Virus record (IMG/VR): IMGVR_UViG_3300044577_000044
Location: 1 to 33,019 of that record
From: a virus
Reading direction: 5' to 3' (one strand)
Length of the DNA: 33,019 nucleotides
Each line of letters starts with the position of its first letter. The stretch's first letter is position 1. Under the pieces are notes generated by a model. The model saw only the letters and a list, made by a program, of their open reading frames with translations, was not told where the DNA came from and searched no databases. Positions 25,645-30,872 of the stretch are shown here, one piece after another. The position numbers and the translations under genes were made by a program.

Positions 25645-25694
25645 TTCTTACCTCTACCAGAGCGGGAAAGTCTGTGGCATCCTATCCTCCAGGC

Positions 25695-25922
25695 TCAGCC
25701 TGTGACGTGCTTTACCGCCCACATGACAGCTTCTTCGATCTTGGTCTTCGCAAGGGAAACCTCTCGACTGTTCCCCATGCCAGCGACGAATTCGTGGAAC
25801 TCCAATCCCATGTCCTTGATCTTCGACATATTCGCCTTTTCGGCATCGTCGAGGACACGATATTGGTGCCGCATTGTGTTGTTAACGGTGCGCTCATCAG
25901 AAGTGCTGTCAACGTGTGCCAT
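25695..25922 (-). CDS. acb2: Acb2/Tad1-hairpin-domain protein, predicted anti-CBASS sponge
   Basis: A 75-residue protein. The C-terminal part (residues 19-74: HQYRVLDDAEKANMSKIKD, MGLEFHEFVAGMG, NSREVSLAKTKIEEAVMWAV, KHVTG) carries the features of the Acb2 family: a helical hairpin with the nearly invariant SREvSLAkTKIEEAVMWAVKHiT end. Acb2 proteins bind cyclic di- and trinucleotides and so block CBASS effectors; they act as hexamers. The first 18 residues are a variable lead. It opens the late gene block just after a terminator and promoter-like sequence, and the gene stop sits in a small palindrome. The Thoeris inhibitor Tad1 is the alternative function in the same structural superfamily, but length and motif fit Acb2 better. 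Confidence 0.85.
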   Translation of the reverse strand: MAHVDSTSDERTVNNTMRHQYRVLDDAEKANMSKIKDMGLEFHEFVAGMGNSREVSLAKTKIEEAVMWAVKHVTG

Positions 25923-25952
25923 CTTGGTTCACTCCGTTAAGGTTGTGTCACG

Positions 25953-27473: not shown

Positions 27474-28278
27474 CGGTTTTCCGTGTGCTCTGGGGTTTCA
27501 TGCGCCGATCGCGGGCTTCCGCGATGGCATCGGTGAAATAGGCCAGCGAGCGCGGCGGGTCGTGGCCGTTGCGCCGCGCCATCAGCCGCTTGACCGTGGG
27601 CTCGATGTCGAGCTCCCAATCGGCGCCCTCGGCCAGCCAGCTCGCGGCGATCCCCCAATCGCCGAACCAGCCGGGGTCGCCGGCCACGCCCATGATATCG
27701 GCGACACGCCGCCCGACCGCAACGGCCCGCTCGGCTGAGGTCGCGCGCTTCAAAAAATCGGGAATGTCGAGAAGATCGGGGTCGGCAGCAGCAGCCGGCT
27801 GGGTCGCGGCAACAGACTCAATGCTGCTGCTGTTAACCTCTCTCTTTCTTTCTTTCTTATCTAGACTCTGGACGCGTGCGTGCGCGCGCGAGGGGTTTGC
27901 TTGCGTTAAGTCATTGTTTTTGTGGTGAACAGCATCGTTTTCAGATACCTTTCGTCCACCTTTCGCGCCACTTTCAGCGCGTTTTCGGCGCGTTTTCGCG
28001 ACGTTTTCGAGCTCGAAACTCGCACGAGAATTGCTCAGCGCGCCGTCGCGCGCGGCCAATTTACCCTCGTCGATGAGCTGTTGGCGGAGCGCTTTCCATT
28101 TACGGATCGACACCCCGCAGACGCCGGAAAGATAGCGCGCATCGTCCGGTATCGGCCCGCCCCGGTCGTAGATCAGGTCCAGACACAGGCTGTAGGCGCC
28201 CTTCTCCTCGAGCGACAACATCATTGTCGAGGTGATGAAGTCGGCGCCGTAGCGTTTGTACCAAGGGCGCGCGCTCAT
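27304..28278 (-). CDS. DUF1376-family phage replication-region protein
   Basis: A 324-residue protein. The first 90 residues (WYKRYGADFITSTMMLSLEEKGAYSLCLDLIYDRGGPIPDD, then ARYLSGVCGVSIRKWKALRQQLIDEGKL) are the DUF1376 winged-helix-like domain, known from YdaU-type and primosome-like phage proteins. A Lys/Arg/Ser-rich linker follows, then a second conserved helical block (about 190-265, FGDWGIAASWLAEGADWELDIEPTVKRLMARRNGHDPPRSLAYFTDAIAEA). The tail is Gly/Pro/Glu-rich and overlaps the next gene. It likely takes part in phage DNA replication initiation. Start overlaps the sigma-like stop by ATGA. Confidence 0.82.
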   Translation of the reverse strand: MSARPWYKRYGADFITSTMMLSLEEKGAYSLCLDLIYDRGGPIPDDARYLSGVCGVSIRKWKALRQQLIDEGKLAARDGALSNSRASFELENVAKTRRKRAESGAKGGRKVSENDAVHHKNNDLTQANPSRAHARVQSLDKKERKREVNSSSIESVAATQPAAAADPDLLDIPDFLKRATSAERAVAVGRRVADIMGVAGDPGWFGDWGIAASWLAEGADWELDIEPTVKRLMARRNGHDPPRSLAYFTDAIAEARDRRMKPQSTRKTDERTHSPANAGANLYDGFAEAARVLADEPTQPAEPGEAEGGGAGGGGRLEGPPETG

Positions 28279-29006
28279 GGCGTGTACCAGCCGTGGCTTC
28301 GCGCCTCGGCCGCCTCCGCCTCCCGTTCCCGCACACGTTCAATATCGGACATCTCGACGAGAAACGGGGCAACTTCAGCAAGGCGCCTTATGGTTCCGGG
28401 ACGACGAAGTTTCCGTAGGGCTTTCTGCTCAATCTGGCGCGCACGCTCTCTGTTCACGCCGCCGATCATGAGGGAAACCTCTTCAAAAGTATTTTCGGCA
28501 TCAGTGAGTCCTTTGCCAATGTTATTTTTCTTACTCTGACCCACTTCGCCACTGAGACCAAATCGAGCCTTGATAACGATCGCCTCGCGTTCTGTGAGGA
28601 CTTCGTCAAGGATGGCCTCAAGGGTTTCGGCTGCCTCAACTTCCTGAAACCTTTGATCTGGAAGCAAATGATCGTCGGGAACCGATAGGGCGCTGGTGAG
28701 GCGCTCCATTTCGTCCAGGCTGACCTCAAATGAGGCGGTGTTCTTGAGCAAAGGATCCCAGACGTGTTGATGTGGAAATAAATCGTCACATTTACAGCCG
28801 AGTTTTTTTGCGACCCTCCGGACGGGCTTGCGCCACTCGCCCCGTTTCGTCATTGGGGCCTTCTTGAGGGAAGCGAGCCCATAAAGTGTGGCAGAATTCA
28901 TGCCAATAGCAGTCGCCAGATGGTTGATATTGTCAAATCCGGCGGCCTCCATGCGTCGTAGAAACGGCGCGTTTCTGACCTTAATCTCGATTCTGTAATC
29001 TTTCAT
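28275..29006 (-). CDS. Sigma-70-like phage transcription factor
   Basis: A 243-residue protein. The N-terminal part (residues 9-80: RNAPFLRRMEAAGFDNINHLATAIGMNSATLYGLAS...PHQHVWDP) holds a HTH of the type I know from phage sigma-like proteins. The region about 118-210 resembles sigma-70 region 4 (AILDEVLTEREAIVIKARFGLSG...TFEEVSLMIGGVNRERARQIEQKALRKLRRP), with the -35-recognising HTH in ERARQIEQKALRKLR. No region 2 for -10 binding is visible. It may direct host polymerase to late genes, or act as an adaptor. Its DNA between about 28430 and 28980 is less GC-rich than its neighbours. Confidence 0.82.
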   Translation of the reverse strand: MKDYRIEIKVRNAPFLRRMEAAGFDNINHLATAIGMNSATLYGLASLKKAPMTKRGEWRKPVRRVAKKLGCKCDDLFPHQHVWDPLLKNTASFEVSLDEMERLTSALSVPDDHLLPDQRFQEVEAAETLEAILDEVLTEREAIVIKARFGLSGEVGQSKKNNIGKGLTDAENTFEEVSLMIGGVNRERARQIEQKALRKLRRPGTIRRLAEVAPFLVEMSDIERVREREAEAAEARSHGWYTP

Positions 29007-29028: not shown

Positions 29029-29904
29029 TCATTGGGCCCCCTCCGCCTGCATGATGGAGCGGCCGATCATTTCAACGACTTGGGGCACGACGGCGTTGCC
29101 GAGGGCTCTAAGTCGGTCCACCCGGTTGGGAACCCCATGAGCCACTCGACCCACGTCGGGTTCAGGGAGCCACCGAGCCGGTGCCTCTGTGCCGCGCTCG
29201 CTTCGCCGCGGCCCTTCGCCATGCCCAGGTCCGGCGTCGGCCACAGCGACCTGTTCACCGCCCGCCCGAGTTCGTTCCCGCTCGGGCCGTTGCTCTTGCC
29301 ATCTGGGCTGAAGCCGTGCGCGGTGGGCCACATTTTCTTCGCCACATGAACCCGCAAGCTGTTTCTCGTCGCCGTGTGGTCCGTGGTCTTTTCCCAATCC
29401 GTCACCGTGCCGTGCTTCGCTTCTTGTGCCAACGGCGTGGGCCACAATCCATAGCCGCTCTCGTCTGTGCGGGGCATCGACGGCACAAGCCGGAATAGCA
29501 AACGTCCGGCAGGCGTAGCCACATCCCTCCAGGTCAGAAAGCACTTGGTCGAGGCCCAAATGGATGAGCCCAGCAACATTTTCTCCAAGTACCCAAGTGG
29601 GCCGGAGTTCGTCCACGAGCCGATACATTTCTGGCCAGAGGTGGCGGTCATCGTCCGCACCCGCTCGCTTCCCGGCGACACTAAAGGGCTGGCAAGGGAA
29701 GCCGCCGGAAATAAGCTGGACTGGTCCAACGGCATCGCCCCTCAGTTCCCGGATGTCGCCGTGACAGGGCACGTCGGGCCAGTGATGGGCGAGTACCTTG
29801 CGGCAATAGTCGTCGGTCTCGCAGAACGCCACGGTGGACATGCCGGCCCGCTCAAGCCCAAGGCTGAAACCGCCGATCCCGGAAAATAGGTCCAGCACAT
29901 TCAC
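29029..29904 (-). CDS. C5-cytosine DNA methyltransferase
   Basis: A 291-residue enzyme with all main motifs: I NVLDLFSGIGGFS (residues 2-14), IV GGFPCQPFS with nucleophile Cys71, VI ENV (108-110), VIII APHRRERLW (144-152) and IX/X RALGNAVVP (266-274). The start is a GTG after GGTGAGGG, giving the canonical MNVLDLFSG. The region about 155-255 (target-recognition side) is Arg/Glu/His-rich and shares its DNA with an alternative frame that also looks family-like (see findings). It methylates phage DNA, probably to escape host restriction; no cognate nuclease gene is nearby. Confidence 0.92.
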   Translation of the reverse strand: MNVLDLFSGIGGFSLGLERAGMSTVAFCETDDYCRKVLAHHWPDVPCHGDIRELRGDAVGPVQLISGGFPCQPFSVAGKRAGADDDRHLWPEMYRLVDELRPTWVLGENVAGLIHLGLDQVLSDLEGCGYACRTFAIPACAVDAPHRRERLWIVAHAVGTRSEARHGDGLGKDHGPHGDEKQLAGSCGEENVAHRARLQPRWQEQRPERERTRAGGEQVAVADAGPGHGEGPRRSERGTEAPARWLPEPDVGRVAHGVPNRVDRLRALGNAVVPQVVEMIGRSIMQAEGAQ

Positions 29905-29944
29905 AACGCCCTCACCATTCGCCGTGGTGATTCCCGTTGGCCGC

Positions 29945-30322
29945 TCAGGTCGACGCCGCCTGGGCACCCTCGCCGTTGGCCGCGCGGCGTCGGCCCTTGC
30001 CCTTGGTCTCGTCCTCGTCGGCTGCCGCCAAGCCGAGCTCGAACTGCACCGGCAGGCCGAAGGCCTCGCGGCACAAGGCGTAGCCGTCGTCGACGTTCTT
30101 GCGCTTGGACTCGTCGGTTTCCAGGTAACGCAGGGCGGCATCGAAGGTGTTTTTGGGGATGCCCACCGCCTCAACCTTGGCGCGCGCCGAGGCGATGTCG
30201 GCGTTGGCCGCGGCGCGTACGCGCTTGGCGTCCTGCACCGCGTTGAGCGCGGTCTTGATGACCAGCAGGATCTCGGTCTTGTTGCCGGCGATGTCGGGGA
30301 TTTCTTTCTTCGGTCGTGCCAT
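29945..30322 (-). CDS. Small coiled-coil protein of phage recombination region
   Basis: A 125-residue protein (ARPKKEIPDIAGNKTEILLV at the start; then AKRVRAAANADIASARAKVEA, helical; then VGIPKNTFDAALRYLETDESKRKNV and AFGLPVQFELG). This layout recurs in alphaproteobacterial phages, sometimes with a GapR/DUF2312-like annotation; I see the coiled coil but not the GapR DNA-binding end. The C-terminus is basic (KGKGRRR). It sits between the RuvC-like gene and the methyltransferase, so a role with DNA is likely. Confidence 0.72.
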   Translation of the reverse strand: MARPKKEIPDIAGNKTEILLVIKTALNAVQDAKRVRAAANADIASARAKVEAVGIPKNTFDAALRYLETDESKRKNVDDGYALCREAFGLPVQFELGLAAADEDETKGKGRRRAANGEGAQAAST

Positions 30323-30323
30323 T

Positions 30324-30872
30324 TTAGGTCTCCATGGGTTGGGGTTGGTTGAACAGGTCCGGCCGCACGGCCGGCGGTGGCGGGTACTGGTCGGGATGGT
30401 GGCGGTGCAGTTGGGCGCAGGCGTAGGCCATCACGCCGATCGCGTCGGCCTCGTTGTGGTCGGTCGGGTCGAAGCCACAGCGGCGCAGGTTCTCGAGGAT
30501 GTCGGTCTTGGTCCCGTTGCCGCGCCCCGTGACGTGTTTCTTGATGGTCTGGACGGGGACGCCCAGGCAGGCGATGTCGCGGTGCTCGCACCACATCAGT
30601 AGGACCGCCTCAAAGCCGCCCCACATCTGCACCGCGCGCGCGCCGTGGTTTCTGGCGATAAACGTGACTTTCTCGTAGGCGACCAGCGCCAGCGCGCCAT
30701 CCGCAGCCTCGAGGCACCAACTCAGATGCTCCTTGAGCAGGCGGAAACGGGAGCCGGGCTGGTTATCCGCAATGGGAGCGCAGTCCAGCACGCCCGACAG
30801 ATTCGCGCGATCGTCGCGCCGCATCGCCCAGCCGGTCGCGGTGCCCAGGTCGAGGCCCAGGACCGCGCTCAT
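30324..30872 (-). CDS. RuvC-like Holliday-junction resolvase
   Basis: A 182-residue protein of RNase H fold. Asp8 in VLGLDLGTATGWA, Glu67 in LVAYEKVTF and His139/Asp143 in TDHNEADAIGVMAYA make the four-acid (here with His) catalytic set of phage RuvC-like enzymes. A conserved block (GVPVQTIKKHVTGRGNGTKTDILENLRRCGF, about 104-134) matches the family. Role: cut branched replicative DNA before packaging. The ATG overlaps the membrane-protein stop by ATGA. The C-terminus is Pro/Gln/His-rich. Confidence 0.88.
   Translation of the reverse strand: MSAVLGLDLGTATGWAMRRDDRANLSGVLDCAPIADNQPGSRFRLLKEHLSWCLEAADGALALVAYEKVTFIARNHGARAVQMWGGFEAVLLMWCEHRDIACLGVPVQTIKKHVTGRGNGTKTDILENLRRCGFDPTDHNEADAIGVMAYACAQLHRHHPDQYPPPPAVRPDLFNQPQPMET

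Follow-up and report, generated by a model that had tools for sequence, protein, structure and literature searches.

A putative Acb2-type sponge for cyclic oligonucleotides encoded upstream of the terminase genes of a viral genome

Introduction

What is encoded by a short reading frame that lies ahead of the terminase genes of a virus, and could its product interfere with host defence? The question is raised by a 75-codon frame in a 33,019-nucleotide stretch of viral DNA (IMG/VR virus record IMGVR_UViG_3300044577_000044), the whole of which was analyzed and is termed the window. An earlier note had attributed the product to the Acb2 family by its motif, and had pictured the gene as standing alone between a terminator and the terminase genes with promoter-controlled early expression. 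We propose, with a probability of about 0.85, that the gene encodes an Acb2-type sponge for cyclic oligonucleotides. The assignment draws on sequence profiles and a predicted fold; ligand binding and protection against CBASS would follow by analogy with the characterised Acb2 proteins.

Results

Coding status of the minus-strand frame

The acb2-type gene occupies positions 25922–25695 on the minus strand, and its 75-residue product (P0002) has the C-terminus SREVSLAKTKIEEAVMWAVKHVTG. It was recognised by its match to the family profile PF24729, its relatives, the codon-position bias and the helices predicted by AlphaFold2. An overlapping plus-strand ORF (25674–25940) would encode 88 residues and might be the true gene, the 75-codon frame being then spurious; in 73 of 130 loci, the window among them, one antisense frame is indeed open. 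However, comparison of the minus-strand frame with 47 relatives of equal length gives 693, 468 and 1857 changes at codon positions 1, 2 and 3, respectively. Third positions take most of the changes, and the plus-strand ORF is therefore accidental. The 75-codon ORF evolves as a protein-coding sequence. On the codon pattern and the PF24729 match of the 75-residue product, the plus-strand ORF was discarded as the true gene, the chance that it is so being negligible.

Family assignment

The profile PF24729.2 (Acb2/Tad1, hairpin domain) matches residues 21–74 of the product with positions 2–57 of its 58, with an E-value of 5e-18 and 65.5 bits for a curated cut-off of 27. This is far beyond chance, the bits being more than twice the cut-off; the model takes in the hairpins of both Acb2 and Tad1. 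A search against the profile of this hairpin family had been suggested in the earlier note, and its outcome is in favour of the identification. PHROG families 1454, 717 and 15810, all without assigned function, match more weakly than PF24729, and no match to the product was found in PADLOC and NCBIfam. Searched as a single sequence against the PDB with phmmer, the product gave E-values of 0.14–0.81 and no significant match to Acb2, the first five rows being Tad1 chains (0.14–0.16). A profile made from the alignment of 57 sequences (A1, the product and its relatives) matched T4 Vs.4 (E = 0.0017), Acb2 homolog 43 (0.0031), Pseudomonas p26/Acb2 (about 0.02) and Tad1 (about 0.07).

Predicted fold

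The monomer was modelled with AlphaFold2 on a 54-row alignment (A2), with a mean pLDDT of 83.5 and a pTM of 0.62. The model is all helical, without β-strand. It consists of two long helices (residues 26–47 and 53–73) predicted with confidence, with block pLDDT values of 97–98 in their core, preceded by an uncertain N-terminal helix (residues 9–18, pLDDT of about 56). A short helix and two long ones also make up the Acb2 protomer as described in part of PMC10419184. Structural comparison with VIA-align ranked T4 Vs.4 first (7uq2, Z = 6.6, 2.4 Å over 60 residues), followed by Pseudomonas Acb2 (8h2j, Z = 5.9, 3.9 Å over 63 residues; 8h2x, Z = 5.9, 2.0 Å over 58 residues), all with Z-scores below 8, which can reflect merely a common helical arrangement. 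The next row after the Acb2 entries is an unrelated helical chain with Z = 5.4, so that the Acb2 scores lie within the chance range for helical hairpins; Tad1 scored 4.5. With Foldseek, the best Acb2-family row had an E-value of 0.83, the others being higher, which is not significant.

Ranked on the sequence profile first and the fold second, the evidence supports the product as an Acb2 member. The identity first read from the motif is thus borne out by the curated profile, by the predicted fold, and by the alignment of profile A1 with the PDB entries, which includes the N-terminal Tyr/Lys segment presented below.

Ligand segment and pocket

In the alignment of profile A1, residues 10–29 of Pseudomonas Acb2 (8h2j) face QYRVLDDAEKANMSKIKDMG of the 75-residue product, and an N-terminal YR-L...K segment is common to both proteins. 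What makes this match informative is its reach into the N-terminal part. It follows from the alignment that Tyr21 and Lys36 correspond to Tyr11 and Lys26 of Pseudomonas Acb2, which we take to be experimentally tested dinucleotide-binding residues. Both are invariant in A1 (57 of 57 rows). The N-terminal Tyr that is a feature of Acb2 is represented by Tyr21, a putative ligand residue from its place in the alignment. The ranges superimposed by VIA-align begin at residues 16/3 (7uq2), 13/3 (8h2j) and 18/8 (8h2x); if gap-free, they again superimpose Tyr21 on residue 8 of T4 Vs.4 and residue 11 of Pseudomonas Acb2. In the wider set, the R[HQ].Y pattern is missing in 8 of 122 distinct relatives, two of them with Cys.

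In T4 Acb2, Tyr8 binds cyclic dinucleotides and Phe82 stacks on them, as stated in part of PMC12657218. The position of Phe82 is occupied by Thr74 in the 75-residue product. This pairing was counted from the shared MW, with the numbering of the PDB chain taken as one ahead of the native numbering, an offset derived from T68M in part of PMC12657230; VIA-align, whose superimposed range finishes at 75 on 83, agrees with it. Since Phe82 corresponds to Thr74, the pocket would not be identical to that of T4 Acb2. A Phe of the T4 type is not general, as Ala stands there in relatives from Pullulanibacillus (L135) and a deltaproteobacterial bin (L136).

N-terminal extension

Codons 1–21 (25860–25922, minus strand), including the putative ligand residue Tyr21, form an N-terminal extension delineated from A1 and the motif of the relatives. 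A1 shows no variation at D9, R11, N14, N15, R18 and H19 in any of its 57 rows, and in the wider set the pattern D.R..NN..RH.Y occurs in 104 of 122 distinct relatives, window included. Most of the extension, that is the residues before 21, falls outside the PF24729 match, which begins at residue 21. The relatives were found with patterns drawn from the 75-residue product, one of the six covering NNTMRHQY, so that the search somewhat favours conservation of the extension; one scan of relatives relied solely on the K[IT]EEAVM and Y[RK]VL..xEK patterns. The low pLDDT would fit a segment that takes on order only upon oligomerisation or with a ligand in place. Two relatives (L068 and L091) have a small insertion within the NN-RH segment (NNEEDNTMRH and NNTNTMRH, respectively), which disturbs the usual spacing.

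Surroundings and expression

The acb2-type gene is preceded by an ORF of 153 residues (26483–26022, minus strand), for which no Pfam or PHROG match was found. Between the two lies a terminator-like hairpin leading into a run of T residues (25985–25956, minus strand), with a fold energy of −21.1 kcal/mol and a z-score of −2.73, compared with −0.76 on the plus strand; a longer piece around it reaches −24.4 kcal/mol (z = −3.5). The hairpin was not listed by a consensus terminator scan. Its end is 33 nucleotides from the start codon of acb2, which is preceded by GGAG. The promoter scan detected no promoter-like site between hairpin and start codon, the nearest listed match sitting inside the gene. 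A TTGACA hexamer (26025–26020) precedes the hairpin, with no good second hexamer by eye. An early promoter of acb2 was accordingly not retained. A dedicated promoter is no likelier than read-through or transcription from upstream, and the promoter-controlled early expression initially imagined is therefore without support; the positions of the gene in relatives, both early and late, also speak against it.

Downstream, a possible basic ORF of 49 residues and uncertain status (25644–25495, minus strand) appears from translation between acb2 and the terminase genes; it had no tblastn match at the best 80 of at least 599 large-terminase loci. It is followed by a candidate terminase small subunit of 98 residues (25472–25176, minus strand), which matches phrog_641 (terminase small subunit, E = 6.6e-8) and phrog_15261 (no function, E = 2.5e-16) and has no Pfam match. 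The terminase large subunit (25216–23942, minus strand) matches the Pfam families Terminase_3 (E = 2.1e-27) and Terminase_6C (E = 3.5e-20). The placement between a terminator-like hairpin upstream and terminase genes downstream therefore holds, and "alone" is only approximate because the possible 49-residue ORF separates acb2 from the terminase genes.

Elsewhere on the minus strand of the window, a 243-residue protein (28275–29006) matches sigma-70 region 4 (E = 1.3e-8) and phrog_351 (sigma factor), and is a possible phage transcription regulator. A C5 cytosine methyltransferase (29029–30594) has a Pfam match over positions 2–167 only of the 324 in the model. A second, different frame (29067–29735) has no Pfam match; the ends of both presumably resemble a methyltransferase C-terminus, which suggests a frameshift or overlapping coding.

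An accessory gene with scattered relatives

The G+C content of acb2 is 52.2%, compared with 61.5% for the window, which places it at about the 6th percentile of 228-nucleotide windows. IMG/VR loci with a close large terminase were examined with flanks of up to 4 kb on each side, keeping the best 80 of at least 599; DNA upstream extended over at least 800 nucleotides in 67 of them and at least 1500 in 52. No significant copy was detected with the acb2 profile at any of these 80 loci, where the only three profile rows (E = 0.069) all lie downstream of the terminase. One of the 80 (L152) has large and small terminases that are 76 and 81% identical to those of the window. At another locus (L154), a homologue of the upstream 153-residue ORF (40% identical) is followed by roughly 200–250 nucleotides without acb2 and then by a small-terminase match. 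Given the lack of a significant copy at the 80 loci, acb2 was rejected as a conserved member of the packaging block.

Identity to relatives reaches 85% in other phages and 84% in genomes, and in two scans of IMG/VR relatives were confirmed on 222 and 460 stretches, which overlap. At 138 loci, the window among them, 1017 neighbouring ORFs were sorted into 810 groups, of which 691 had a single member and the largest was common to 10 loci; the number of groups is inflated because ORF picking was crude and included spurious ORFs, some antisense in the window itself. When 148 neighbours were compared with PHROG, the 25 families listed out of 219 included endolysins, terminases, portals, head proteases, DNA polymerases, an exonuclease and integrases. 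The position of the gene is scattered, early in some relatives and late in others. From its low G+C content, the lack of a significant copy at the 80 close terminase loci and these scattered positions, acb2 is probably an accessory gene acquired from elsewhere.

Two relatives, 85 and 80% identical (L003:5001-5693 and L015:5001-5729), are fused in frame to tails of 155 and 167 residues, respectively, each with two hydrophobic segments. For these tails, Pfam yielded nothing below E = 0.95 and PHROG nothing at E = 0.01. They may anchor the sponge in the membrane, or may have arisen by chance fusion to an adjacent membrane protein.

Hosts and co-occurrence with CBASS

Alphaproteobacteria are named for 25 of the 32 genome loci carrying a relative, which makes an alphaproteobacterial host plausible. 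The family is uncommon in this class, with 6 of 385 sampled genomes over the cut-off, including one already known as a carrier. No open-access paper was found that joins "Acb2", "anti-CBASS" and "Alphaproteobacteria"; Acb2 was announced in a Microbacterium phage in part of PMC13348362.

The CD-NTase domain PF18144 exceeds its threshold in 6 of 19 carrier genomes versus 43 of 446 in two order-level samples (27 of 297 and 16 of 149 taken separately; Fisher p = 0.009), the carriers being hand-picked from the 32 loci and the comparison unmatched for phylogeny, genome size and completeness. Dropping four carriers seen in the order-level listings, where further ones may remain, gave p = 0.007. A class-level sample, with PF18144 over the cut-off in 2 of 190 and at E = 0.001 in 5 of 190, was left out of the comparison, as many small genomes appear in its listed part; its place was taken by the order-level samples, which give a weaker contrast. 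The CD-NTase excess in carrier genomes is no more than a hint of a link to CBASS.

Discussion

By analogy with the characterised Acb2 proteins, compact homohexamers that sequester cyclic di- and trinucleotides, the 75-residue protein would assemble into a homohexamer. The hexamer would capture, and leave intact, cyclic oligonucleotides from host CBASS enzymes, possibly along with related signals. With the signal mopped up, the CBASS effector would stay off and the infected cell would be neither killed nor stalled by it. Carriage of acb2 might be costly in certain hosts, as Acb2 also triggers the Panoptes defence according to parts of PMC12657218 and PMC12657230.

Two other activities were weighed for the same hairpin. 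It could belong to a sponge of the Tad1 type, aimed chiefly at Thoeris signals (gcADPR) and not at CBASS nucleotides, since PF24729 takes in Tad1 hairpins as well as Acb2 and the first five phmmer rows are Tad1 chains. However, according to part of PMC12043709, Tad1 has an N-terminal antiparallel β-sheet domain before its helical hairpin, for which there is no room in a 75-residue product modelled without a strand. Moreover, the alignment of profile A1 with Pseudomonas Acb2 takes in its N-terminal segment, and VIA-align places T4 and Pseudomonas Acb2 above Tad1. Tad1 identity was rejected on size and fold, and a chiefly Thoeris-directed sponge appears highly improbable. There is also a small chance that the family hairpin has been turned to another task, such as a structural or lysis-associated role, as the endolysins, terminases, portals and head proteases among the neighbours and the two fusions with hydrophobic tails might suggest. 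Yet DNA polymerases, an exonuclease and integrases are neighbours as well, no neighbour group reaches beyond 10 of 138 loci, and the Tyr and Lys of the ligand segment are invariant in A1.

The product as an Acb2-type sponge is very probably a well-supported but ordinary member of the family, and adds a strongly supported branch to the Acb2 sponges. A bolder proposal, which we hold to be rather unlikely, is that it represents a distinct, mostly alphaproteobacterial Acb2 subfamily, in which the D-R-NN-RH extension would build an additional part of the pocket and replace the Phe82 contact of T4. Its ligand range would then differ, perhaps with a signal new to Acb2, and a few members would be membrane-anchored. 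The invariant residues of the extension are concrete mutation targets for asking how Acb2 proteins choose their ligands.

Comparison with known systems

Three named phages and viruses carry orthologues that are 57.5–60.6% identical over 95–97% and all annotated as hypothetical protein. Unlike in the window, the gene sits between the head-to-tail adaptor and stopper genes in Sinorhizobium phage Aussie, near an exonuclease and recT in Podoviridae sp. ctCJ8213, and among unnamed genes in "Dunaliella viridis virus SI2". The latter (HQ332136.1, L084) was deposited with an algal host and is classed in Caudoviricetes; the host entry may be doubtful.

Among the proteins of known structure, Tad1 (7uav, 8smd, 8kbf) shares the C-terminal hairpin with the SRE...EEA.MW motif, but the listed chains have 115–138 residues and N-terminal β-sheets, whereas the 75-residue product is all helical in the model. 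Acb2 homolog 43 (9ptq) is matched by profile A1 over the hairpin. Its aligned part is preceded by just 16 residues, compared with about 32 in the 75-residue product, leaving no room for the full extension; no literature on the 9ptq structure was found, the phrase "Acb2 homolog" being met in one review. T4 Vs.4 (Acb2, 7uq2), the first row of VIA-align, has the AKTK...A.MWA motif in common with the product, and differs by the replacement of Phe82 by Thr74 and by a Tyr8 closer to the N-terminus. Pseudomonas Acb2 (p26; 8h2j, 8h2x) shares the hairpin domain, the YR-L...K segment and the arrangement of a short helix and two long ones, with 21–22% identity over the aligned part. The 75-residue product has about ten more residues before the Tyr, with a conserved pattern, and a much shorter link between the long helices, the aligned stretches of p26 being 25 residues apart.
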